Source of the DNA: Kiritimatiellota bacterium
GTDB lineage: Bacteria; Verrucomicrobiota; Lentisphaeria; Oligosphaerales; JAADHN01
Reading direction: 5' to 3'
Length of the DNA: 49,030 nt
Assembly: GCA_013151865.1 (NCBI GenBank)
Contig: JAADHN010000004.1
Span: 1 to 49,030 of the forward strand
In this document: one piece after another, positions 17,383 through 46,232 of the stretch
Layout of the letters: each line of letters opens with the position of its first letter
How positions within the stretch are numbered: the first letter of the stretch is position 1
The notes under the pieces: model-generated
The model's database searches: none
What the model saw: the letters and a program-made list of their open reading frames with translations, nothing else
What the model was told of the DNA's origin: nothing
Program-made: the position numbers and the translations under genes

Positions 17383-18198
17383 ATGCGCGTAATCGAACCG
17401 CACATCCACATGATCGCCCGAACGACGGCCGACTACGAGCGCATGGCCATGATGCACACCGTGGCATGCTGCGAGCCGGCATTCTGGGCCGGGTACGACC
17501 GGACGAGTCCCGCGGCCTTCTACGACTATTTCACGCACCTGACCACATTCGAGCCGCGCCGTGCGGCCCAGTATCTGATTCAGCACTACGCCTGGATTTG
17601 CATCAACCCGAAAGAGGCCGAAAACGTCGAGTTTTCGAAAGAGGTCATTTCCTTCATTCCCGAGTTCCTGGATAAGCCCAACGTACTGGGTGTCGGCGAA
17701 ATCGGTCTGAACCGGAACACGAAGAATGAAATGGCCGTGTTCGAAATGCAGGTCGAACTGGCCTTGGAACGGGGACAATTGATCTGGATTCACACGCCGC
17801 ACCTGGACGACAAACTCCGCGGTACTCGGATGATGCTCGATTATCTCGAGGGTCACGGCGGAATCGACCCGGAGCGGGTATGTTTCGATCATGCCGAGGA
17901 ACACACCATCGGCCCGATCCGGGACGCCGGCTTTTGGGCGGCCATGACGATTTATCCGGTGACCAAGAACTCGCCGTCCCGGGTGGTGGACGCGCTCGAG
18001 GTCTTCGGCGTGGACCGCATGTTGGTGGATGCCTCCGGAGACTGGGGGCCGTCGGACCCGGCCACGCTGCATCAGGCGTTGTTCGAGATGCGCCGCCGGG
18101 GCCACGACGAGGCCACGGTCGAGGCGGTCTTTTACGACAACCCGTGCCGTTTTCTCGGGCAGTGTCCCAAGTTCAAGCCGCGCCCGAGGACGGGCTGA
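17383..18198 (+). CDS. TatD-type metal-dependent hydrolase, EboB-like
   Basis: The protein has 271 residues. GGAGG lies 6-7 bases before the ATG. All TatD-superfamily metal ligands are visible in order: H7-I-H9, E106 in GVGEIGLNR, the histidines of WIHTPH and FDHAEEH, and the aspartate of LVDASGDWG. The sequence differs from DNA-repair TatD proteins in its long aromatic first third (YDYFTHLTTFEPRRAAQYLIQHYAWICINPKEAENVEF), which resembles the hydrolases called EboB in the ebo gene cluster that in other phyla accompanies a prenyltransferase and a dehydroquinate-synthase-like enzyme. None of those partners is in the window. A cytoplasmic hydrolase with two metal ions is expected; the substrate is unknown. 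Confidence 0.75.
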   Translation: MRVIEPHIHMIARTTADYERMAMMHTVACCEPAFWAGYDRTSPAAFYDYFTHLTTFEPRRAAQYLIQHYAWICINPKEAENVEFSKEVISFIPEFLDKPNVLGVGEIGLNRNTKNEMAVFEMQVELALERGQLIWIHTPHLDDKLRGTRMMLDYLEGHGGIDPERVCFDHAEEHTIGPIRDAGFWAAMTIYPVTKNSPSRVVDALEVFGVDRMLVDASGDWGPSDPATLHQALFEMRRRGHDEATVEAVFYDNPCRFLGQCPKFKPRPRTG

Positions 18199-18305: not shown

Positions 18306-20816
18306 ATGAAAACCTGGAAAACCATCTCGTGGCTTCTGGTGCTCGGCTTGGTTCTGTGGCTGCTGTACCCCTCTCGCACCCGCACCGCCGTCTCGGGCCG
18401 TCGAAACCGAGCCGGCGTGGTCGAGATCACCTATATGGGGCCGGGCGGGCCGATCAGCGGGGCCATGGCGGACGCGGTCCGGGCGTTCGAACGCGACAGC
18501 GAGGAAGCCCACGCCCGGGACCCGAGCCGTCCGATCTATCGCGTGGTTTCCGGGCAAAACGCCTCCCGGAACCAAACCGCCGATCCAACCCGTTTCTTGA
18601 TCAGCGTGGCCGGCGGTATGCCGCCGGACGTGATTTGGTTCGACCGGTACGCCGTTGCCGAATGGGCGGCCCGCGGCGCCTTTCAACCCCTGGACGGTTT
18701 TATCGCCAAAGACAAAGCCGCCGGGCTCGACGAAGTCCCGTGCGCCGAACGCTTTTACAAGTCCTGTTGGGATGAAGCCTGCTACCGGGGAAAGGTCTAC
18801 GGCATACCCACCTCCGTGGACGACCGTGCCCTGTTGTACAACAAGGACCTGCTCAAGCGGGCCGGACTGGTGAACGAGAACGGCGAGGCCCGTCCGCCGC
18901 GCGATTGGGACGAACTCAAGGAATACGCCGTAAGACTGACCGAGCGTGACGCTCGCGGGGAACTCAAGGTGGTGGGTTTCGCACCGCAATTCGGTAATAG
19001 TTGGCTGTATATGTACGGCTGGATGGCGGGCGGCGAGTTCATGTCTCGAGACGGGACGCGCTGCACGTTGAACTCGCCGCGAATCGTCGAGGCGCTTCGC
19101 TACATGACCGACGTCTACGACGCTATCGGCGGCTATGCCAAGGTCCAGGCCTTCCAGGCCGGTTTCCAGGGCGGCGAACTCGATCCGTTCATTCAAGGCA
19201 AGATCGCCATGAAGATCGACGGTTCCTGGCAGGTGCCTTTCCTGGCCGCTTATGGGCGCGATCTGGACTTTGGTGTGGCGCCGCCGCCGCTGCCTCGACA
19301 CGAAATCGCCAAAGGTCGCCGGACCGTCAGTTGGAACGGCGGTTGGGCGTACGCGATTCCGGCCAATGCCCTTCACAAACAGGCGGCCTGGGATTTTATC
19401 CGTTTCATGACCGGGCGAAGGGCGTTTCTGATCTGGATCGAGAGCGAACGCGAAATCGCCGAGGCCCAGGGCCGTCTTTACATTCCGCGTCAACTGCCGG
19501 TGAAAAAACTCAACGAGTTTGTGTTCGACAAGTACGTTTACAACAATCCGCGCGTCCCGGAGAACATCAAGGCGGCCTGTCGCGTTTTCAATCAACTGTT
19601 GCCGGAGGCTCGTTACCGACCCGTCACGCCGGTGGGGCAACTGTTGTGGAACGAGCACGTAACGGCCATGGAGGCCGCGCTCTACCATCGTTTGACCCCG
19701 AAAGCCGCGCTCGACCGGGGCGCCGCCGTCGTCCAACGCGAACTCGACCGCGTCCTGCACCCGGTCGAGGGCCGTCCGATCCGCTGGAAGTGGTTTTTCG
19801 CGTTTTACGCATTCTTGCTGGTCGCGGCCGGCGCGACGGTGTACGCCTGGGACACTCGGCCCCGCTTCCGCCGACGTCTCGGCAGGATGTTGGGTCTCCG
19901 CAAGCAGGCGGGTCGAGGTGTCATCGAAGGCGCCGGCGGCGGCTATCTGCGCGGACAGTGGCGGGCCGGCTGGCTGTGCGCCGCGCCGTGGATCGTCGGG
20001 TTCATTATCTTCGGAGGCGGGCCCATGCTGTTCTCGCTTTTGATCAGTTTCTGCGACTACGACATCCTGAACCCGCCCAAGTTCATCGGCCTGCACAGTT
20101 ATCGCTGGATGTTTGCCCACGACCGTCTCTTCTGGCTCTCGTTCCGCAATACGCTTTTTATGACCCTTGGCGTGCCGTTGAACATGGCCGCCGGTCTGGC
20201 CGTGGCCCTCCTGCTCAACCTGAAGATTCGCGGCATGGCCGTTTGGCGCACGTTCTTTTATCTTCCCGCCATCGTCCCCATGGTGGCTGCCAGCATCCTT
20301 TGGATCTGGATCTTCAACCCCCAGGGCGGACTCATCAACCTGGCGCTCCAGTCGGTCGGATTGAAAGGCCCGCTCTGGCTTCAATCCCCCCTTTGGAGCA
20401 AGCCGGCCATCATCGTCATGGGCTTGTGGGGCGCCGGCAGCAACATGATCATTTGGCTGGCGGGCCTCAAAGGGATTAATGAGCAGCTCTACGAAGCCGC
20501 CGCGCTCGACGGCGCCAATGCCTGGCAGCGCTTCTGCTATATCACCATTCCCCAGCTCACGCCGTACATCTTTTTCAACTTGGTGATGGGGATGATCGGC
20601 ACTTTTCAGATTTTCGGCCAGGCATTCATCATGACCCAGGGCGGCCCGGACAACTCGACCCTGTTCTATGTTTACCACTTGTTTAACAATGCGTTCCGCT
20701 ACGGGAACATGGGATACGCCGCCGCCATGGCCTGGGTCCTTTTCGTGGTGGTGCTCGGGGTCACGTTCGTGCAGCTCCGACTCTCGAAACGCTGGGTCTA
20801 CTACGAAGCGGGGTGA
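18306..20816 (+). CDS. ABC sugar transporter: solute-binding protein fused to permease (MalF-type)
   Basis: The protein has 836 residues. An N-terminal anchor helix (residues 7-20) places the next part outside the cell. Residues about 38-475 are a family 1 extracellular solute-binding domain (PPDVIWFDRYAVAEWAARGAF, KVYGIPTSVDDRALLYNKDLL, FIQGKIAMKIDGSWQV). A second membrane helix at about 495-516 returns the chain to the cytoplasm, followed by an Arg-rich linker (about 517-555) and a six-helix permease of the MalF/UgpA type with the EAA loop E730-AAALDGAN...P that docks on the ATPase. This topology is self-consistent. Separate binding protein and permease are the rule, so the fusion is unusual. 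No second permease (MalG type) and no ATPase follow, so those must be encoded elsewhere. Confidence 0.88.
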   Translation: MKTWKTISWLLVLGLVLWLLYPSRTRTAVSGRRNRAGVVEITYMGPGGPISGAMADAVRAFERDSEEAHARDPSRPIYRVVSGQNASRNQTADPTRFLISVAGGMPPDVIWFDRYAVAEWAARGAFQPLDGFIAKDKAAGLDEVPCAERFYKSCWDEACYRGKVYGIPTSVDDRALLYNKDLLKRAGLVNENGEARPPRDWDELKEYAVRLTERDARGELKVVGFAPQFGNSWLYMYGWMAGGEFMSRDGTRCTLNSPRIVEALRYMTDVYDAIGGYAKVQAFQAGFQGGELDPFIQGKIAMKIDGSWQVPFLAAYGRDLDFGVAPPPLPRHEIAKGRRTVSWNGGWAYAIPANALHKQAAWDFIRFMTGRRAFLIWIESEREIAEAQGRLYIPRQLPVKKLNEFVFDKYVYNNPRVPENIKAACRVFNQLLPEARYRPVTPVGQLLWNEHVTAMEAALYHRLTPKAALDRGAAVVQRELDRVLHPVEGRPIRWKWFFAFYAFLLVAAGATVYAWDTRPRFRRRLGRMLGLRKQAGRGVIEGAGGGYLRGQWRAGWLCAAPWIVGFIIFGGGPMLFSLLISFCDYDILNPPKFIGLHSYRWMFAHDRLFWLSFRNTLFMTLGVPLNMAAGLAVALLLNLKIRGMAVWRTFFYLPAIVPMVAASILWIWIFNPQGGLINLALQSVGLKGPLWLQSPLWSKPAIIVMGLWGAGSNMIIWLAGLKGINEQLYEAAALDGANAWQRFCYITIPQLTPYIFFNLVMGMIGTFQIFGQAFIMTQGGPDNSTLFYVYHLFNNAFRYGNMGYAAAMAWVLFVVVLGVTFVQLRLSKRWVYYEAG

Positions 20817-21091: not shown

Positions 21092-22327
21092 ATGCCCATG
21101 GCCCACATCCAGGATCGGTCCATTCCCCGGGTTTCGCCAAAAGCCCGCGAGTATGTCGGGGACGTCCTCGATTTCGGCTTCCACAATGCGCACTCGGTCG
21201 GGATGACGGCCCGGCTCGAGCAGCGCTTTGCCGAACGGATGGGCGCCAAGTACGGCATCGCCCATTGCAACGGCACAGCCACGCTCCAGTCCGCCTTGCT
21301 CGCCGCCGGCGTGGGCGTCGGCGATGAAGTCATCGTCCCGGCGTTCACGGTCTTTTCGACTCCGGCCGCGGCCCTGCAGTGCAATGCCGTGCCCGTGGTT
21401 GCCGATGTGGACCCCGAGACTTGGACCCTCGATCCGGAGGACGTCCGGCGCAAGATCACCCCCCGCACCAAGGCCGTCATTCCGGTCTCCATTTGCGGTC
21501 TCATGCCCGACATGGGTCCGCTCATGGAACTGGCCCGCGAACACGACCTGATCGTGATCGAAGACAATGCGCAGGGATACCTCTCCGAATACCATGGCCG
21601 CGTGGCCGGAGCGATCGGGCATTTCGCCAGTTTCAGTTTCCAGGCGTCGAAAACGGTCACGTGCGGCGACGGGGGCATTCTCATCTGTCGTGATCCGGAC
21701 CTGGCCTTGAAGGCGCGCCGGGCCGCGACCCTCGGCTTTCGCGACCTCTCCGTGACTCCCGGCGACAATGTGGTGGACGAGGAACTCCGCTGTCATCCCG
21801 ACTACCGTCGCCACTGTTCTCTGGGCTGGAACCAGCGCCTGCCCGAGATCGCCTGCGCCGTGGCCCTCGCCGAACTCGAGCGGGTCGAGGAACTGGTCGA
21901 GATGCGCTGTCTGTGCGCGGAGGCGTTTGCCGAGGTCGTCGACCGTTGCGACTGGCTCACCCCTCAACGCGTGCCCGAGGGATACCGGCACACGTATTGG
22001 ACATACCCGGTCAAAATCGAACGCGAGGACGTGGATTGGGCCGAGTTCCGCCGGACCTTCACGGCGTTGGGCGGCGACGGCTTTTACGGCGCCTACTGTC
22101 CCGTGCATCTGGAGGAGGTCTTCGAAAACCTGACCGTCGCCATCCGGGCCCGCCCGGAGCGCTACCCGCAGTGGACCGGAAACTGGCCCGACTACTCGCC
22201 GGGGCTGTGCCCCGCCTGGGAGCGCATCCAGCCCCGTATTGCCATGTTCAAAACCAACTACTTCGATACTGTCGAAGCCCGCCGCCAAGCTGTCGTGCTC
22301 GAACAGACCGTGCGCCGGTTCTCCTGA
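21092..22327 (+). CDS. DegT/DnrJ/EryC1/StrS-family PLP-dependent aminotransferase
   Basis: The protein has 411 residues; the ATG at 21092 (or 21098) follows GGAG at 21084-21087, whereas the longer frame from 20813 lacks a site and carries foreign-looking sequence. The fold type I aminotransferase signatures are clear: NGTATLQSALLAAGVG for phosphate binding, VIVPAFTVFSTPAAA, DVDPETWTLDPEDV, the PLP-ring Asp in VIEDNAQGY, and the Schiff-base lysine K187 in FQASKTVTCGDGG. These enzymes move an amino group to keto-sugars in nucleotide-sugar and antibiotic sugar pathways, or have PLP-dependent dehydratase roles. Here no sugar-nucleotide genes are close; the gene sits between the SBP-permease fusion and a MATE exporter, so its exact substrate is open. 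Confidence 0.9.
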   Translation: MPMAHIQDRSIPRVSPKAREYVGDVLDFGFHNAHSVGMTARLEQRFAERMGAKYGIAHCNGTATLQSALLAAGVGVGDEVIVPAFTVFSTPAAALQCNAVPVVADVDPETWTLDPEDVRRKITPRTKAVIPVSICGLMPDMGPLMELAREHDLIVIEDNAQGYLSEYHGRVAGAIGHFASFSFQASKTVTCGDGGILICRDPDLALKARRAATLGFRDLSVTPGDNVVDEELRCHPDYRRHCSLGWNQRLPEIACAVALAELERVEELVEMRCLCAEAFAEVVDRCDWLTPQRVPEGYRHTYWTYPVKIEREDVDWAEFRRTFTALGGDGFYGAYCPVHLEEVFENLTVAIRARPERYPQWTGNWPDYSPGLCPAWERIQPRIAMFKTNYFDTVEARRQAVVLEQTVRRFS

Positions 22328-26922: not shown

Positions 26923-29900
26923 TTACAGACCCTCCATGGCGATGGACAACCGGTAGAACCACGCTTCCGGCCGCATTGTTTCGAAAGCGACCGCGTCTGC
27001 TGTGCGCGTAAACGAGACAGGGCCGAGGCGTTCTTTCTTCGCGTCCAGCGCGGAGACGGACACACTCTTGATCGCCTTGCCCGGCAACAGCTCGGCCAGT
27101 CTCAGGCGAAGTTTTCCGCGCCTGCCGTGGGGAATGGGCATGATGAGCAGGCCGTCGTTCAGGCGGTCGATTCGGACGGCGATGTCCGTGACCAGCGTGC
27201 CGAAATCGATGGTGGCGCCGAGCGGATTGCGGCCGGGCTTTTCCCGGCTTGCCGTGTCCGTGGGAGGCGAGAACAGGAGGAGAGCGGGCGGCGTGTTCAC
27301 CTGAATCGTGCCCACCCAATAGCGATCCTGATCATGTCCGTCCCCGATCAGCTTGACCCGACCCAGGCCGCGCTTGAACAGCCCCACGCCGACCCGGTAG
27401 GTCCCGGGAACGATGCCGGGGGGGACCTCGACCGACCAGGGGCCGTCGTCGTATTGCGTGCCCGGTTGCCATTTCGATGTCGGGGTTCGGGGACTGTGAT
27501 CGTTCTGCCATAGGATGCGTTGCCCCTGGGCATCGGTGAAGTGAACGAAAACGATGTAGTCGGTATCGAGCGTTGCGTTCACCTTCCAGCGGTAGGTGAT
27601 GTCGAAGGTTCGGGGACCGGTCGCCTTGAAGTCGGCCGGCAGAGGTTCGATGTTCACGGGCGGGGTTTTGTCCGTATACATGGCCTCGTAACCGCGCGGG
27701 TCGGCGAAAATGCGTTCGGCGGTCTCGGAATAATCCCCCACCAATCCGTTCGGACTCAGCGCGGTGCGGGCTTCGACGCCCGCACCTTCGGCGACGAAGC
27801 CGTAGGCGGGCAAGGAATACCCCCGCACCCGCCAACCGGGACGTTCGTCGTTGACCCAGATTCTCAGGCCGTTGTCGTACGTCACTCGCACTTTGCGCGG
27901 GGCTTGCGTGCGGCAAGCAGTCGTCGAACTCACCCATTGCTTATCGAACAGGTAGGAGATTTCGACGGCGCGAGCCGGGACGTACCGCTCCTGGATCGGC
28001 TGTACCAGGTAGTACTCTCGCAGGACCTGGGTCAGTTTCGGGAACGCTCCGGTGTTAAGGAAACCGGCGTGACCGTAGATCAGCTCGAAGGCTCGGTACT
28101 TGTCCATCTCTTCATCGGTCAGCGTTCCCCTTCGCAGGCGATGCCAGCGGGTGTAATACCCCATGCCGTGATTGACGGTCAAGGGATGGACTTTCAGGAG
28201 ATCGAAATCCGGCAACGGCGGGTGGATTTCTCCGCCGCGTCCGTCCACCTGCGCCTCGCAGCCGTCGATTCGTCCCGCCCAAAAGGAATGGTAAGCGCCC
28301 TCGCCGAAGATGGGCCCCTCGTGCGTTTTCCGCATGAACTCGAACAGCCGCGTCAGCGTCTTGTACGCGAATCCGAAACTCGCGGCGCCTTCCGTTCCGG
28401 CGTCGTAGTCGATCTGCCACGGGAAATTCACGCTGTGGACGTCGAGATAGCCCGCGCTGGTGCGGTATCGGAGATGGGCCTGAGTCGCCTGGTCTTCGGC
28501 ATAGCGTGCGATCCAGGTGGGCTTCAGGCGATAGGCCTGCATCCGTGTCGAGGGGTTGTACCACCCCTTGATCTTGCGCCCGCCGGGATCCAGCGCCACC
28601 GCGTCGTCGGTATACTTCGGATAGTTGGGATAGTAGTCGATGTAGTTCTCGTGAAGAGCGAAGAGATAGCCCAATTCCCGAGCCGTGCCGCCGAGGATTT
28701 TCATGCCCGCGTCACCTCCCATGCTCTTCATCGCCGGAACATGTTCCGGCAGACCGTTGTCGTAGCCGTGACGTTGCCACACGTGATAAATGATGGCCAG
28801 TTCGTCCAAGCCGTAGCCTTTCAATTCGCGAAGATACCGCGCGCCGCCCTCGAAGCTGCCCGGCCACGTCCACCAGTCCAACACGACCTTTTTCGCCAGC
28901 ACGTCCATGAAGGGAGATTTGGGATTGGGAAAGTTCGGAAGCGTCTCCAACCAGTCCGGAGATACAGTGACGTAGATGCGTTCGCGAAGAGGATTGCGGG
29001 TCCCGTCGGTCTTCGCGGTGTAGCGCGTCGAGCCCAGGCGTCCCAGCGCGGTGGCGTGGGTTGTCGTCCAATCCGCATAGCTCGAGGCATATGCGTCGCC
29101 GAGGGGCAAAGGTCGCAGGCGCGGTTCCAGGTACGGCACGAAGAGCGGATCGCTCTTGAGGCCGTACAGCGGACCCCGTACCTCGGGGAAAACGGCCTGC
29201 GGAGACCGCACCTCGACCGCCAGAGTGCGGCCGTGCAGACCGACGCGGTACGACACGCGGACCCCTCCCTCGAAAATGCCCGTGTACGAGAGGCTCTTGC
29301 CGTCGAAATCCACATCTGCAAGTTTGGGGGCCGTCTCGGCGGGACAAACGGCTGTTCCAGCCCTCAGGATCATGGGGCCGTTCTTGGCGGGATCGCTCTT
29401 AAACAGGCGCCTTTCGTTCCGGAAGATCTCGAAGTCGAACCCGGGCGCCGGCCGCCAGATGTAGCGCAAGACGTTTTTCCCGTCTCGATATTCGAAACGA
29501 TAGCTGCCGTCCGCTGCCGCGGCGCGCGTCCGCGCTTGCTCGCTCGCCGACGAGGGCAGGGGCGTGACCACAGCGGGGGCGGCGAGGCGGAGCAGGTTGG
29601 GATGGCCGGGGTCCCGCAATACCGTCAGCGTTCGTTCGCGGACGATTCGGTCGTCGCCTGCCGCAAATACGTCGGAGAGCGTGGTCTGTCCCGGCCTTTG
29701 CAAGCGGGGCAACACAAGGGGCTCCCCCGAGCGCACGTTCAGCGGCCCGAAAGTCGTGATGGCCCCGCCGGACGTTTGCCGCAAGGTCCCCGACACCATG
29801 GCGGAAAGCTCACCTGTCAGGGAAAAAACGCCGACACGGGGACTCGGCGCCTCGCCGACGGCATATACGTCCCTCGTCATCTCCATCCAGGCGAAAGTGT

Positions 29901-31212
29901 TCCGGCATAGAGTGAGGCGTCCGAAGCTCACGGGCGCTTCCCAATAACGCGCCTTGGTTTTCGGTTTCCACAACAGCTCGTGGTGGCGGGCCATAGGCGT
30001 GTCCGAATCGGTGAGAAAGAGCTGAAACGCGAGATTCAGGCCGGGCTTGGGCGCGATCCCCAGAACGGAAAAGGGGACCTTGACCTCCATCACGTAGCCA
30101 TTGCTGTAGAGTACAGGAGCGACCACGACGGCACTTGCGTCTCTTTCCGGGGATTCAGGCCGGCCGTACGTCGGGAATTTGACCATGGGCTTGCCCTGTT
30201 CGCCTTCGGGGTTGACGGCGATCACGACGTCGTCCGCAGTAAGCATCGGTCCGCCGGGGGCCTTGCCGATACCGATCCGCAACGAATCGCTGCCGGAAAA
30301 ATCTTCCGTCATGGTGTCCATGAATAGGAGGGTGTCGTCCCAGCGCACTTCGGCCAGGTAGAGGTTCTCGTCGTCCCAAGCCAAAGCGACAACTGCACTG
30401 AAGTCGTCCGGCCCCCGCCAGCCCCCTTTCCAGCCCGGTTTGTGGCTGCGGATATCGACAGCCAGTTGTTTTCTCTGCCGCAACGACAGGGCGGCTCGCA
30501 TGATGTCCTTGGGCCAATCGTCGAGTGAACCGTCGATCCGAATCGGGGATTCCAAACGGAAACAGGGCGCGACCCCCAGCGGGAAAGGGGACTTTCCGGG
30601 CGGGGAGACAGGCAACGGCGGTCGCTGGGGCCCGGCGGGTCCCGGCCCGCCGACGCGAATCTTGAACTCCGCGAAACTCCGGCCGCCCACTGTCCCCGCG
30701 CGCCAGGGGGGATGCGCGAAAAAGCCGCGCCTCGCTTCGTTGCCGCATGTCAGGGTCCCGGCCAAGAAGGTGGCCCCGGTCCGACTCCGGGGCATGGGGC
30801 TGATTTCCCGGCCGGCCACCACGATCCCGGAACGCCAGATCTTGCTCTTGGTGAAGTCCAGCAATACCGTGTCCGCCTCAACAAGTCGGGGAAAACCCCA
30901 ACACGCCCAATCGTCCGTGGTCGTTTCTCCCGGATCGGTCGTGAAGCGCACAAAGATTTCCCGGCCCCGGAACGCCGACAGATCGACCGCCTGTTCCTCG
31001 CTCCAGCGCTCTTCTTTCCAGTGGGTTTCCGCTACGACGTCCCACTTCTTGCCGGTTTCGCTGAGTGCGATGCGAAAGGTTACTCCGTCGGATTTGTCCG
31101 CCCCATTGCGTAATCCGACGGAGTACAGCAGGCGAACGGGCGCGCCGATCAGCCGACCGGAGCACGTCAGGGCAAGTATGGCGACGCCACGCAACCACCG
31201 ATTCTTCGACAT
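26923..31212 (-). CDS. Giant secreted glycosidase-like protein with CBM9-type domain
   Basis: The protein has 1429 residues. A signal peptide (LRGVAILALTCSGRLIGA) opens it. Residues about 30-130 form a beta-sandwich; about 215-435 are a CBM9/DOMON-like carbohydrate-binding domain with the typical IRIDGSLDDWP start and AWDDENLYLAEVRWDD. Residues about 770-1020 are the probable catalytic TIM-barrel-like region (VVLDWWTWPGSFEGGARYLREL, LFALHENYIDYYP, SAGYLDVHSVNFPW, GPIFGEGAYHSFW), similar in layout to GH101-like / DUF5696 enzymes; D924 and E971 are candidate catalytic residues. A C-terminal sandwich follows. It likely cuts a complex, O-linked or sulfated glycan outside the cell; substrate unknown. 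It forms an operon with the oxidoreductase downstream. Confidence 0.8.
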   Translation of the reverse strand: MSKNRWLRGVAILALTCSGRLIGAPVRLLYSVGLRNGADKSDGVTFRIALSETGKKWDVVAETHWKEERWSEEQAVDLSAFRGREIFVRFTTDPGETTTDDWACWGFPRLVEADTVLLDFTKSKIWRSGIVVAGREISPMPRSRTGATFLAGTLTCGNEARRGFFAHPPWRAGTVGGRSFAEFKIRVGGPGPAGPQRPPLPVSPPGKSPFPLGVAPCFRLESPIRIDGSLDDWPKDIMRAALSLRQRKQLAVDIRSHKPGWKGGWRGPDDFSAVVALAWDDENLYLAEVRWDDTLLFMDTMTEDFSGSDSLRIGIGKAPGGPMLTADDVVIAVNPEGEQGKPMVKFPTYGRPESPERDASAVVVAPVLYSNGYVMEVKVPFSVLGIAPKPGLNLAFQLFLTDSDTPMARHHELLWKPKTKARYWEAPVSFGRLTLCRNTFAWMEMTRDVYAVGEAPSPRVGVFSLTGELSAMVSGTLRQTSGGAITTFGPLNVRSGEPLVLPRLQRPGQTTLSDVFAAGDDRIVRERTLTVLRDPGHPNLLRLAAPAVVTPLPSSASEQARTRAAAADGSYRFEYRDGKNVLRYIWRPAPGFDFEIFRNERRLFKSDPAKNGPMILRAGTAVCPAETAPKLADVDFDGKSLSYTGIFEGGVRVSYRVGLHGRTLAVEVRSPQAVFPEVRGPLYGLKSDPLFVPYLEPRLRPLPLGDAYASSYADWTTTHATALGRLGSTRYTAKTDGTRNPLRERIYVTVSPDWLETLPNFPNPKSPFMDVLAKKVVLDWWTWPGSFEGGARYLRELKGYGLDELAIIYHVWQRHGYDNGLPEHVPAMKSMGGDAGMKILGGTARELGYLFALHENYIDYYPNYPKYTDDAVALDPGGRKIKGWYNPSTRMQAYRLKPTWIARYAEDQATQAHLRYRTSAGYLDVHSVNFPWQIDYDAGTEGAASFGFAYKTLTRLFEFMRKTHEGPIFGEGAYHSFWAGRIDGCEAQVDGRGGEIHPPLPDFDLLKVHPLTVNHGMGYYTRWHRLRRGTLTDEEMDKYRAFELIYGHAGFLNTGAFPKLTQVLREYYLVQPIQERYVPARAVEISYLFDKQWVSSTTACRTQAPRKVRVTYDNGLRIWVNDERPGWRVRGYSLPAYGFVAEGAGVEARTALSPNGLVGDYSETAERIFADPRGYEAMYTDKTPPVNIEPLPADFKATGPRTFDITYRWKVNATLDTDYIVFVHFTDAQGQRILWQNDHSPRTPTSKWQPGTQYDDGPWSVEVPPGIVPGTYRVGVGLFKRGLGRVKLIGDGHDQDRYWVGTIQVNTPPALLLFSPPTDTASREKPGRNPLGATIDFGTLVTDIAVRIDRLNDGLLIMPIPHGRRGKLRLRLAELLPGKAIKSVSVSALDAKKERLGPVSFTRTADAVAFETMRPEAWFYRLSIAMEGL

Positions 31213-41697: not shown

Positions 41698-42636
41698 ATG
41701 CGAAAAACCGTCTTGAGCATGTCCGCTCTTGCCGTCAGTCTCCTTCTCCGGGCGGCCGACCCGGTGATGGTCGATGCGTTGGACCACCTTGAGGGCAAGC
41801 CGGGAAGGCAGACCACCTCGCCGGTGCTCGCCGGGGCCGCCGGCGCGGGAGTGACCGGACAATTGTCGGGCACGAGCGCGGTCCTCGAACCGCACGAAAA
41901 CGGGAAGGCCCTGCGCCTGCGGGAAGGGAGCGTATTGCGCTATATGAGGGTCCCCGTGCTCAATCCGGCCGGCGGCATGCTCGCTCTTCAGGTCAAACTC
42001 AATTTCGATCCCACTCTCGTCGACAAGCGGACCAGGACCGTCCTTCGCAACCAGTTCTTTGCGCAGGTTCGCACCCCGGAAGGTCATCGCGCCCTGCTTT
42101 ACACCTGCCTGAAAAATATTTGCGTATTGGTACAGAATTCCAAGCGTACCATGCTGCTGTCCAAGGCCGCCGATTTCCCTTGGCGCCAGGGAGAATGGCA
42201 CGAACTGACCCTGCGCTGGGGCAATCGGCTCGAGGTGTCGGTAGACGGCCGGCGGCGGTTCGAGGCGAATTGGAGCGGCCTCTTCGGACCGCTGCCGGTC
42301 CACCGAGTTCCCATGCGACTGACCATCGGTGCGGGACCGGGCAGCGGCATCGTCAATGAATTCAGCGTGGATGAATTGCGGATCTTCGGGCCGGAGCCTG
42401 GGCGCGTCGGGGCTCGCCCGCTGCTGTCGGTCCCCCGGCTCTCCCGGGGCCCGGTCCTGGACGGAAAGCTCGACGACAGCTTCTGGTCCCGGGCCGCGGC
42501 GGTCTCCGGTTTCGTGCAGTTCGACCGCCGTGAACTGGCCCGCAACCGCGCTTCTTCCTCGCGCAGGCGGAAAGCGCCCTTTGGGTGGGGGCGGACATCC
42601 CGCTGCCGGACGGACGTGCAGCCCGGGCGTCGCTGA
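41698..42636 (+). CDS. N-terminal fragment of frameshifted giant glycosidase (LamG and CBM9 start)
   Basis: A GAGG site lies 8 bases before the ATG at 41698, and a signal peptide (TVLSMSALAVSLLLRAADP) follows. Residues about 30-230 form a LamG/concanavalin-like jelly roll (LRLREGSVLRYM, WRQGEWHELTLRW, EFSVDELRIFGPE). At residues about 250-280 a CBM9-type domain begins (PVLDGKLDDSFW, SGFVQFDRRELA) but the frame then turns to Arg/Ser-rich sequence and stops at 42636. Reading one base back from about 42540 gives PQPRFFLAQAESALW, continuing the CBM9 fold. One missing C in GGCCCGC (42537-42543) explains the break. The intact protein would have 1511 residues together with the next entry. Confidence 0.75.
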   Translation: MRKTVLSMSALAVSLLLRAADPVMVDALDHLEGKPGRQTTSPVLAGAAGAGVTGQLSGTSAVLEPHENGKALRLREGSVLRYMRVPVLNPAGGMLALQVKLNFDPTLVDKRTRTVLRNQFFAQVRTPEGHRALLYTCLKNICVLVQNSKRTMLLSKAADFPWRQGEWHELTLRWGNRLEVSVDGRRRFEANWSGLFGPLPVHRVPMRLTIGAGPGSGIVNEFSVDELRIFGPEPGRVGARPLLSVPRLSRGPVLDGKLDDSFWSRAAAVSGFVQFDRRELARNRASSSRRRKAPFGWGRTSRCRTDVQPGRR

Positions 42637-45600
42637 CCCGTCGCGATGCCTCGGTGTGCACCGAGGATGCGGTTGAGTTGCTCCTGCAGCCCGATCCCGC
42701 GTCTGGGACGTGGTTCCAACTCATTGCCAATGCCATCGGTACTCGCATGGATCTCCGTCGCAAGGGCACGGCCCGCCCGGACATGAGTTTCGACCCGGAC
42801 TGGGAGGTAAGAACGAGTCGCAAACCCGGCGGCTGGATGTTCGAGGCGCGAATTCCGTTCCGTACCCTCGGTTCCGCCGCGCCGCCGCGTCCCGGCGCAA
42901 TCTGGCGGGGCAATCTGGTGGTGGACAGCGCCGACGGCTGGGGCAACGCCCGCACCTGGGCCCTGACCGACGGCGATTTCGTCAACCCGTACACTTTCGG
43001 CGTTTTCCATTTTACGGGCGGGCCGCGCGCCGTCCGCCAGACCGTGTTTCGCGGCACGCGCGAAGGACGCCCGGAAATCGTGTGCGAACTGACCGGCCCC
43101 TACATCCCGGCATCGACTGCCCACACCGAGATATTCGATGCGTTCGGCGAATCCGTGTTCCGCGACAGTGTGCAGCTTACGGACGGCCCCGCGGCCGCAT
43201 TCCGCGCCGGGCCGCTCGGGGGCGGGGCCTACACCGCCCGGACCGATGTCAAGGAGGAAAACGGCCCGACGTTGTTCCGGCAGGATCTGGTTTTCACGGT
43301 CGAGAAGGATTTCAATATGACGCTCGCGAATTACCCGTACGCCGGCGTGGCGGAGGCCCGGATCGATGCCCGTGGCCTGACGACGCGCGCCGCCGTTCTG
43401 AAGCTCGCAATTGTCGGCGGCACGGGGGGCGCCGCCCGCCCGCCCCGCACGGTGGCGCCCGGACCGGATGGTTTGGCCACGGTCAAGCTGTCCACCGCCG
43501 GTCTGGCCCCCGGCAAGTACATGGTCGCGGTCACGGCCGAAGACCGGGCCGGAAAAGACATCGACAGGACCGCGCGGTCGTTGCGCATCTATCCAAAACC
43601 GGTGTGGTGGCGCAACCGGATCGGGGTTGATCACAGTGTGCCGCCGCCCTTCGAGCCTGTGCGGCGCGACGGCGGCACGTTGTCCGTTTGGGGACGGCGC
43701 TTCGAATTCGGCGGCGGCGCCTTTCCCCGGGCCGTCCGCACTCGGGGCGTCGAGCTGTTCAGCGCGCCGCCCCGACTGCTGTTGCGCACCCGGACCGGCC
43801 GGACCGACCTGGCGACCGTGGACGGGGCTCGGGAAACCGCAGTTCACCCCGATGCCGTGACCCGGACTTGGCAAGGGGCTGCGGCCGGCCTCGAGGTCGC
43901 CTGCCGGAGCACACTCGAATTCGACGGCTGTCTTCGCTTCGATCTCCGTATCGAGCCCGGCAAGACCCGCTCCGTGGAAGGACTCCGACTCGAACTCCCG
44001 CTCCCGGCCGCTGTTGCGAAGTTCGCACTGATCTCGAACGGACGCAGCGGCACGGTGGTCCCGGTCGCGCCGCCGGCCCGCCTCCGCTTCGCACCGTACA
44101 TGTGGGTCGGCAACGACGATCTCGGCGTGGCGGTTTTTACCGAATCGGACCAGTACTGGACGAGTACGGAAGCGGGGGCCGTCGAGTTTGTGCGCAAAGG
44201 CGGGACGGTGGTCCTGCGCTGGAATATCGTCACCGCCCGGACAGTTCTGTCCGGCCCCATGTCCCTCAGCATCGGACTCATGCCCAGCCCGGTGCGGCCG
44301 GTCGTCGAAGGCGATCCGTTCCAGCCGATCCTTTACTCGGGACCGGCCAAGGTGGTGTTCCCGGAACGGCTCGATTACCCCCACCCGGAGCGCCTCGCCG
44401 CGACCGGTACGCTCGAGTGCCTGCTCAAACGACCGGCGGATGCCGGCCGCGGGGTGGCCGAACTGCTGTACCTGGCGCCTGGGAAAGGCGCAGCCCTGTC
44501 CGTGCGCTGGGCGCCAAGCGGCGAATTCCTCCTTATGCAGGGCCGGAAGGTTCTGGCCAAAGCGCCGGGCAGGCTGCCCGCCGACCGGTTCGTTCATGTC
44601 GCCCTCTGCTGGGACAACGAGGTCGTGGCCCTCTACATCGGAGGCCGTAGGACCTTCGAGCAGCCCATGACCGACGCCGTGCGCGCCATCCTGGCCGACA
44701 CCGACCCCAAAGCCCATCTCGGCATCGGTTGCGCTTCCGACTATCGCGGCTGGACCGCCCTGATCGTGGACGAGGTGCGAGTGTCGGCCGTCCGGCGGTA
44801 TCGTGGGGAACGCAGTGCCGTCCCTGCTTCTCCCGCCGGGCTGCGATCAAAGGAGAACGGGGACCGGGGTGGGACCAAAGGAGGACGGAAGAAAGAAAAA
44901 GCCGAACGGAGTGCACGATGGGCTCGGTTAAGTCATGATGCGGACACGCTCCTCTTGGACCATTTGGACCGGGCGTTCCGGCCGGATGGAGAGGACGGGC
45001 GCACTCGAGCGGGCGGGGTCCCGTCACTGGGCTGTACGTTCACCGACGGCGCCGTGGATCGCGGACTCCGCATCCAAGTCGGACCGGCCAGGAGCGCCGC
45101 CGAATTGGTGCGGGAGCAGGGCGGCAGCATCGGTTTTGAATGGACTTGGGTGGAAGACGTGAAGAAAACGGGCTGGCCGCCCGATCTGTTCGATCCCGGC
45201 AGAATCGGACTGGCCGCCCATGTCGAGCGTCTGCAGGGATACGGCCTCAAAGTCCTGCCGTACGCGGTGTATCCGGCCATCGGCGCGCCGTCCGACCTAG
45301 CCGACCGATTCGGGGAGGAATGGGCCTGCAAGCCGGTCTCCACCCTGCCGTCGCCCCCGCCGCCCGGACACGTCATGCTCAACTGCTCCCTGGCCGCACC
45401 CGGATACGCCGACTATCTGGCCGCCGGGACCCGGCGCCTGATGACCGAGTTCGGCATGGACGGCATCTACACCGACGGCGCCTGCAACGTGCGTTCTTCG
45501 CAAAACGGTTTTGCCGGAGCTGGTTATATCGATAGACAAGGTAAACGCCGGCCGACCGTCCCCATCTGGGGCACGCGCGAGACCATGAAACGACTCTACC

Positions 45601-46232
45601 GCGTTGTGAAAAGCATCAAGCCCGACGGTGTGGTCATGAATCACGTCTCGTTCAACCTGTTGCTGCCCGTGCTCTCCTTTTCTGATTACCACTACACCGG
45701 GGAGCATGAGAACTACGAGGACCTCTCGCAAACGCGGTTGCGTTTCAGCAGTCGCCCCTGGGGGCTGCAGATCACTCTGCTCGGGTCGAGCCTGCACGTT
45801 TACTCCTCTACTCACACCCTGATCGCCCTGCTGCACGGCACGTCCATTTTCGGACACGGCATCATGGGTCGGCGTGATCTCGGCCGTAAGTGGATCAACC
45901 TGCGTCGGGTGTACCGCAAAGCACGGACGCGCAGTGCGCAGTGGTTCCCTTATTTCCGGGCGGGGAATCCGGTTACGGTGCGGAACAATGACGCCGTGCA
46001 CGTCAGTTCATACGTGCATCCGGGGCAAGACGCCTTCCTCGTTGTCGGCAACCTGTCCCGGCGAGACGTGGAGGCCGAGTTGGCGCTGGATCTGGCGAAG
46101 ATGCGGCTGGGCGGGCGGCGATTGACGGCCGCGAACGCCCTGACAGAAGTCGCTCTGCCGCCCCCGGACCACGGCCGCCTGCGCGTCCCCGTACGCGCCA
46201 AGAGCTTCACTCTGGTGTCTCTGGCGCCTTGA
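42585..46232 (+). CDS. C-terminal part of frameshifted giant glycosidase (DUF6067-like)
   Basis: The GTG at 42585 has no ribosome-binding site and lies in the middle of the CBM9 strand WVGADIPLPDG, so it is not a natural start; the true frame comes from the preceding fragment. The 1215 residues visible here complete the CBM9 domain (to about 145), then two long beta-sandwich regions, a LamG-like domain at about 600-740, a charged linker (about 755-780), and a glycoside-hydrolase-like barrel from about 845 to the end (GFEWTWVEDVKKTGWP, GLKVLPYAVYPA, GIYTDGACNVRSS with D964, DGVVMNHVSFNLLL). The arrangement fits the DUF6067 group of uncharacterised enzymes. It is probably secreted and acts on a complex glycan. 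Confidence 0.78.
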   Translation: MGADIPLPDGRAARASLTRRDASVCTEDAVELLLQPDPASGTWFQLIANAIGTRMDLRRKGTARPDMSFDPDWEVRTSRKPGGWMFEARIPFRTLGSAAPPRPGAIWRGNLVVDSADGWGNARTWALTDGDFVNPYTFGVFHFTGGPRAVRQTVFRGTREGRPEIVCELTGPYIPASTAHTEIFDAFGESVFRDSVQLTDGPAAAFRAGPLGGGAYTARTDVKEENGPTLFRQDLVFTVEKDFNMTLANYPYAGVAEARIDARGLTTRAAVLKLAIVGGTGGAARPPRTVAPGPDGLATVKLSTAGLAPGKYMVAVTAEDRAGKDIDRTARSLRIYPKPVWWRNRIGVDHSVPPPFEPVRRDGGTLSVWGRRFEFGGGAFPRAVRTRGVELFSAPPRLLLRTRTGRTDLATVDGARETAVHPDAVTRTWQGAAAGLEVACRSTLEFDGCLRFDLRIEPGKTRSVEGLRLELPLPAAVAKFALISNGRSGTVVPVAPPARLRFAPYMWVGNDDLGVAVFTESDQYWTSTEAGAVEFVRKGGTVVLRWNIVTARTVLSGPMSLSIGLMPSPVRPVVEGDPFQPILYSGPAKVVFPERLDYPHPERLAATGTLECLLKRPADAGRGVAELLYLAPGKGAALSVRWAPSGEFLLMQGRKVLAKAPGRLPADRFVHVALCWDNEVVALYIGGRRTFEQPMTDAVRAILADTDPKAHLGIGCASDYRGWTALIVDEVRVSAVRRYRGERSAVPASPAGLRSKENGDRGGTKGGRKKEKAERSARWARLSHDADTLLLDHLDRAFRPDGEDGRTRAGGVPSLGCTFTDGAVDRGLRIQVGPARSAAELVREQGGSIGFEWTWVEDVKKTGWPPDLFDPGRIGLAAHVERLQGYGLKVLPYAVYPAIGAPSDLADRFGEEWACKPVSTLPSPPPPGHVMLNCSLAAPGYADYLAAGTRRLMTEFGMDGIYTDGACNVRSSQNGFAGAGYIDRQGKRRPTVPIWGTRETMKRLYRVVKSIKPDGVVMNHVSFNLLLPVLSFSDYHYTGEHENYEDLSQTRLRFSSRPWGLQITLLGSSLHVYSSTHTLIALLHGTSIFGHGIMGRRDLGRKWINLRRVYRKARTRSAQWFPYFRAGNPVTVRNNDAVHVSSYVHPGQDAFLVVGNLSRRDVEAELALDLAKMRLGGRRLTAANALTEVALPPPDHGRLRVPVRAKSFTLVSLAP

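Follow-up and report, generated by a model that had tools for sequence, protein, structure and literature searches.

Within a 49,030-nucleotide stretch of the draft genome of a Kiritimatiellota bacterium (contig JAADHN010000004.1; hereafter, the window), a single reading frame encodes both a family-1 solute-binding protein (SBP) and a MalF-type permease. Such a gene raises two questions: whether the two proteins are genuinely joined, and where the remaining subunits of the importer are encoded. The answer set out below is that the gene most probably (a probability of about 0.83) specifies one part of a split-gene, tethered CUT1 oligosaccharide importer, the other parts being a MalG-type permease encoded on contig C116 and an ATPase encoded on contig C48. 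This reading starts from what the sequences themselves hold, i.e., the fusion, its conservation, the identity of its partner and the co-occurrence of the two, and a single MalK-type ATPase.

Structure of the SBP-MalF Fusion

The reading frame begins with ATG and runs for 836 codons with no internal stop (Table 1). Pfam SBP_bac_1 matches residues 96-371 (E 6e-32) and BPD_transp_1 matches residues 629-830 (E 3e-15), both above cut-off, and the NCBIfam models for MalF, UgpA and GlcT match the permease below their equivalog cut-offs. The EAA-type loop of the permease (YEAAALDGANAWQRF) has a core, Y-E-A-A...D-G-A, which has been kept in all 25 aligned sequences. An AlphaFold2 (AF2) model built on this 25-sequence alignment (mean pLDDT 77.5, about 90 in the SBP) predicts, in order, a helix (3-20), an SBP fold to residue ~484, a helix (494-517), a basic linker (~520-546), where confidence is low, and the permease helices (547-828). 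By Foldseek, the SBP most resembles oligosaccharide-binding proteins, the best match being the mannooligosaccharide-binding protein CpMnBP1 (4r9f; E 6e-22, 25% identity). A profile of the fusion family matched solved SBPs or solved MalF/SugA permeases in the PDB, separately; no PDB chain spanned both.

Table 1. Features of the fusion gene and its immediate neighbors (positions in the window)
Feature	Position	Strand	Evidence
SBP-MalF fusion gene, 836 aa	18306..20816	+	single ORF; Pfam SBP_bac_1 and BPD_transp_1; 24 single-ORF homologues aligned
N-terminal anchor / uncleaved signal helix, residues 3-20	18312..18365	+	sequence; AF2 helix 3-20
Extracytoplasmic family-1 solute-binding domain, residues ~38-485	18417..19760	+	Pfam; Foldseek
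Second transmembrane helix, between SBP and permease, residues 496-514	19791..19847	+	hydropathy peak 496-514; AF2 helix 494-517
Arg-rich cytoplasmic linker, residues 515-546, RPRFRRRLGRMLGLRKQAGRG	19848..19943	+	sequence; low pLDDT; length variable among homologues
MalF-type (CUT1) permease domain, residues 547-836	19944..20813	+	Pfam BPD_transp_1; sub-cut-off UgpA/GlcT/MalF NCBIfam; SugA, MalF in PDB
EAA loop / NBD coupling helix, residues ~727-750	20484..20555	+	Y-E-A-A...D-G-A invariant, 25 sequences
TatD-like metal hydrolase, upstream neighbor, link to the system not shown	17383..18198	+	Pfam TatD_DNase 1.9e-8
DegT/DnrJ aminotransferase, likely start 21092, where relatives have MalG	21092..22327	+	Pfam DegT 5e-74; sequence

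Pfam and AF2 agree with the one-chain topology proposed in an earlier note on this DNA (anchor helix, SBP, second helix, Arg-rich linker, MalF-type permease with EAA loop), and the two Pfam domains and the oligosaccharide-binding matches bear out its assignment of the chain to the sugar (CUT1/MalF) type. Two hallmarks of CUT1 importers are present in the chain: a family-1 SBP, recognized by Pfam and Foldseek, and a MalF-type permease with an EAA loop. The covalent link between them, found in importers with tethered SBPs, lies within one reading frame in all 25 sequences.

Conservation of the Fusion

The 24 aligned homologues are all encoded in a single frame and are 49-73% identical to the window's chain over its length. 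A scan of species genomes found their hosts among the Lentisphaeria/Victivallales, Kiritimatiellae, Verrucomicrobia, Planctomycetes, Hydrogenedentes and a few others; these names are the titles of draft genomes, which can be wrong, although separate assemblies concur. In a sample of 388 genomes across the phylum, the window's fusion family is present in 14, and internal stops occur in none. An assembly or sequencing error that joined separate SBP and MalF genes might be considered for a draft genome, given that canonical operons keep the two genes apart. This is so in more distant Chloroflexi relatives (L103-L106), which have an unfused SBP, MalF and a normal MalG of ~300 aa, an arrangement likely to be ancestral. 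However, 24 homologues from separate assemblies also have SBP and MalF in one frame, joined at the second transmembrane helix, so the fusion is real; the error reading, whose probability is negligible, was dropped. The earlier note had named as refuting evidence any relatives in which a stop codon divides two genes; none was seen among the close relatives, all of which are single-frame.

The MalG Partner

In relatives, a MalG-type permease directly follows the fusion at 21 of the 23 loci where the sequence extends 800 bp or more beyond it, and carries an extracytoplasmic insert of ~290 aa between TM1 and TM2. Two loci (L093, L097) have the fusion and no linked MalG. At one locus (L088 10602-12310) the MalG homologue is broken across reading frames, i.e., a frameshift or sequencing error. 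In the window, Pfam identifies a DegT aminotransferase and then a MATE exporter after the fusion, as previously described; tblastn found no MalG remnant there (best E 0.16), and BPD_transp_1 has only one match on this contig. Thus, the earlier statement that no partner subunits are nearby holds locally but not for the genome, in which the suggested search for a lone MalG and a shared MsmK-type ATPase recovers, by sequence, a lone MalG ortholog (C116) and just one OB_MalK ATPase (C48).

The MalG ortholog, the second permease expected of a CUT1 importer, lies outside the window as an open frame at C116:47691-49322, and is 64% identical to residues 7-549 of the MalG of a linked relative. It falls in the same clade of relatives as the fusion in the respective trees, and the identity matrices of fusion and MalG are correlated (Spearman 0.87). 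The insert domain was found in 12 of the 388 genomes, all of them among the 14 fusion carriers, and the two genes are adjacent in 11 of these 12, being unlinked only in the window's genome. Of the two carriers without an insert match, one (G326) has its fusion ~200 bp from the downstream end of a contig. Co-occurrence, adjacency in relatives and matching trees are therefore good evidence from sequence that the fusion and the insert-bearing MalG are a dedicated pair, the operon of which has been split in this genome unless both contigs are mis-joined.

Such mis-joining would leave the importer as proposed, with fusion and MalG adjacent in the real chromosome. Every other linked case is adjacent, and the assembly is a draft (176 contigs, 97% complete); however, each gene is well within its contig (at 18-21 kb of 49 kb and at 47.7-49.3 kb of 58 kb), neither place has a partial copy of the partner (no fusion remnant was found at the C116 locus), and two mis-joins would be required, which makes this explanation unlikely.

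The lack of a MalG beside the fusion also admits the idea of a MalG-free homodimer, in which two SBP-MalF chains and an ATPase would work together like OpuA or GlnPQ. The two relatives' loci without MalG are in keeping with this, as are eight of the 20 loci sampled from a second fusion family (see below). Yet the same genome encodes an orthologous MalG which phylogenetically tracks the fusion, and the fusion is present in every genome with the MalG insert; a homodimer is thus improbable. Still less probable is that the fusion is a sensor or a scavenging receptor rather than a transporter: its position in the window, isolated from transport genes and beside a DegT aminotransferase and a MATE exporter, could be read in this way, but the EAA loop and the permease core are invariant, and relatives keep the fusion in a two-gene permease unit.

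For the MalG insert, AF2 predicts a beta-sandwich alongside a helical portion, for the most part at pLDDT 80-93; a Foldseek search of the PDB with the model of the MalG partner, the permease part of which is poor, gave nothing significant. From topology, the insert would face the SBP side of the membrane. The C116 MalG lies between a PfkB sugar kinase (identified by Pfam; L036 4104-5390, minus strand) and a frame (~7400-9380 of L036, plus strand) that appears arabinofuranosidase-like by eye, for which Pfam has no match at these coordinates.

A Single MalK-Type ATPase

The MalK-type ATPase with an OB/regulatory domain that CUT1 importers use is present in the window's genome, unlinked to the fusion: one OB_MalK-bearing gene, an orphan on C48, lying between what are presumably leuA-like and ribBA-like genes (neighbors named by reading the sequence). 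It alone matches the query over its full length; the other nucleotide-binding domains (NBDs) match the nucleotide-binding part only. None of about ten MalF/MalG loci inspected in this genome, as counted from sequence searches of its contigs, has an ATPase/NBD gene close by. One OB_MalK gene stands against about ten permease loci, in a draft 97% complete from which a second MalK could be missing. Across the order, OB_MalK is found in 32 of 41 genomes, and 31 of these 32 have exactly one. Because no MalF/MalG locus examined has an ATPase gene nearby, it is likely that the C48 ATPase is a shared, MsmK-like motor which serves the fusion importer among others, an assignment that we infer. A shared ATPase of the MsmK type has been demonstrated experimentally in Streptococcus suis (PMC4519317).

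Proposed Mode of Action

In the proposed importer, the binding protein would be held to the permease by a helix instead of diffusing. The tethered SBP would capture substrate and then dock on the MalF/MalG surface, where the MalG insert may aid docking or capture, and two copies of the shared C48 MalK/MsmK-type ATPase would drive the cycle. The assembly of the three proteins, the use of a shared ATPase, the import of sugar and a role for the insert are all deduced from the gene content. Tethering would fix the ratio of SBP to permease and concentrate binding sites locally, close to the pathway, as has been described for GlnPQ (PMC8025302).

A Second Fusion Family

Fusions of SBP to MalF are not confined to the family of the window. 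A second set comprises two genes in the window's genome (on C22, L029 2761-5658, and on C78, L028 2191-4920) and all 20 of 20 further loci sampled from relatives (L174-L193), and is widespread in the phylum. Several of these fusions precede a MalG 600-840 aa long, whose TM1-TM2 insert accounts for 360-540 aa; eight of the 20 loci (L182-L189) have no linked MalG. The permeases of the two families are 28-36% identical. Since the two fused sets sit on different branches of the permease tree with unfused permeases between them (branch support 0.59 for the window's family and 0.99 for the other), and parsimony gives two changes, the SBP-MalF fusion probably arose at least twice. Thus, the view that a sugar-type fusion is rare fits the window's own family (14 of 388 genomes), but not the second, separately fused CUT1 family, which is common in the phylum.

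A large MalG insert goes with each origin of the fusion, and in these sequences the link is strong, though not exclusive. The stricter rule that confines MalG inserts to fusion systems was rejected: the unfused C8 operon of the window's genome has a smaller one, its MalG having a gap of ~200 residues between the first two helices. It can be suggested, tentatively, that fused SBP-MalF and large-ectodomain MalG form a distinct CUT1 subclass, arisen at least twice, in which the insert would be a fixed domain for docking or for capturing substrate, so that no diffusible binding protein is needed; the odds are somewhat against this wider claim.

Two peculiarities of the second family were seen in the window's genome. 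In the C22 system, the insert of MalG (L029 5658-7661, residues 248-303) matches Glyco_hydro_42 significantly, though in part (E 6e-10), over an apparent repeated motif; it would be odd for a permease to contain a glycosidase-like segment. The SBP of the C78 fusion (L028 2191-4920, residues ~259-330) has CxxC pairs like those of zinc ribbons, with a weak DZR match below cut-off, which is unusual for an extracytoplasmic binding protein.

Comparison with Known Importers

MalEFGK2 and other CUT1 importers (E. coli MalF, 2r6g; LpqY-SugABC, 7cae) share with the proposed system the SBP family, the MalF-type permease with its EAA loop, a MalG partner and a MalK-type ATPase. They differ in that their SBP is separate, whereas here it is joined to MalF, and in that here MalG bears the TM1-TM2 insert of ~290 aa. 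In the E. coli maltose system, the large loop P2 sits in MalF. GlnPQ and OpuA belong to amino-acid and osmolyte families and have identical transmembrane-domain (TMD) halves. Their SBP is covalently joined to the permease as here, and in GlnP it is N-terminal, as in the fusion (PMC8025302). The window's system, in contrast, belongs to the sugar-type CUT1 importers and has two different permeases, one of them a separate MalG. Thus, the fusion would work like GlnPQ and OpuA, yet by its sequence families it is not a member of that group. In MsmK-type systems, one ATPase encoded apart serves several sugar importers, which is suggested here by the single OB_MalK gene. The second SBP-MalF family has the same domain order and is often accompanied by a MalG with a large insert between TM1 and TM2, but forms a separate branch, with its own presumed origin of fusion and a different, larger insert.

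No published CUT1 SBP-permease fusion of either family was found in a search that lay outside most subscription journals, which is weak evidence of novelty. As tethered SBPs are already known from GlnPQ and OpuA, a tethered CUT1 form is a variant on that theme. A conserved and widespread tethered importer of the maltose type would extend a design of amino-acid and osmolyte importers to the main family for oligosaccharide uptake among glycan-degrading relatives of Lentisphaeria and Kiritimatiellae. Its steady pairing with an enlarged MalG makes co-evolution of tethering and the extra domain testable. There is also a warning for annotation: the halves of a transporter may be split across a genome, and an absent neighbor does not mean a broken transporter.

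Genomic Neighborhood

Besides MalG, no gene is common to the relatives' loci; the neighbors differ from one relative to another, with mixed hints of pectin and esterase functions, and point to no one substrate. The window also encodes GH123-like and CBM9-domain proteins (42585-46232, plus strand, and 26923-31212, minus strand), in keeping with a glycan-degrading organism.
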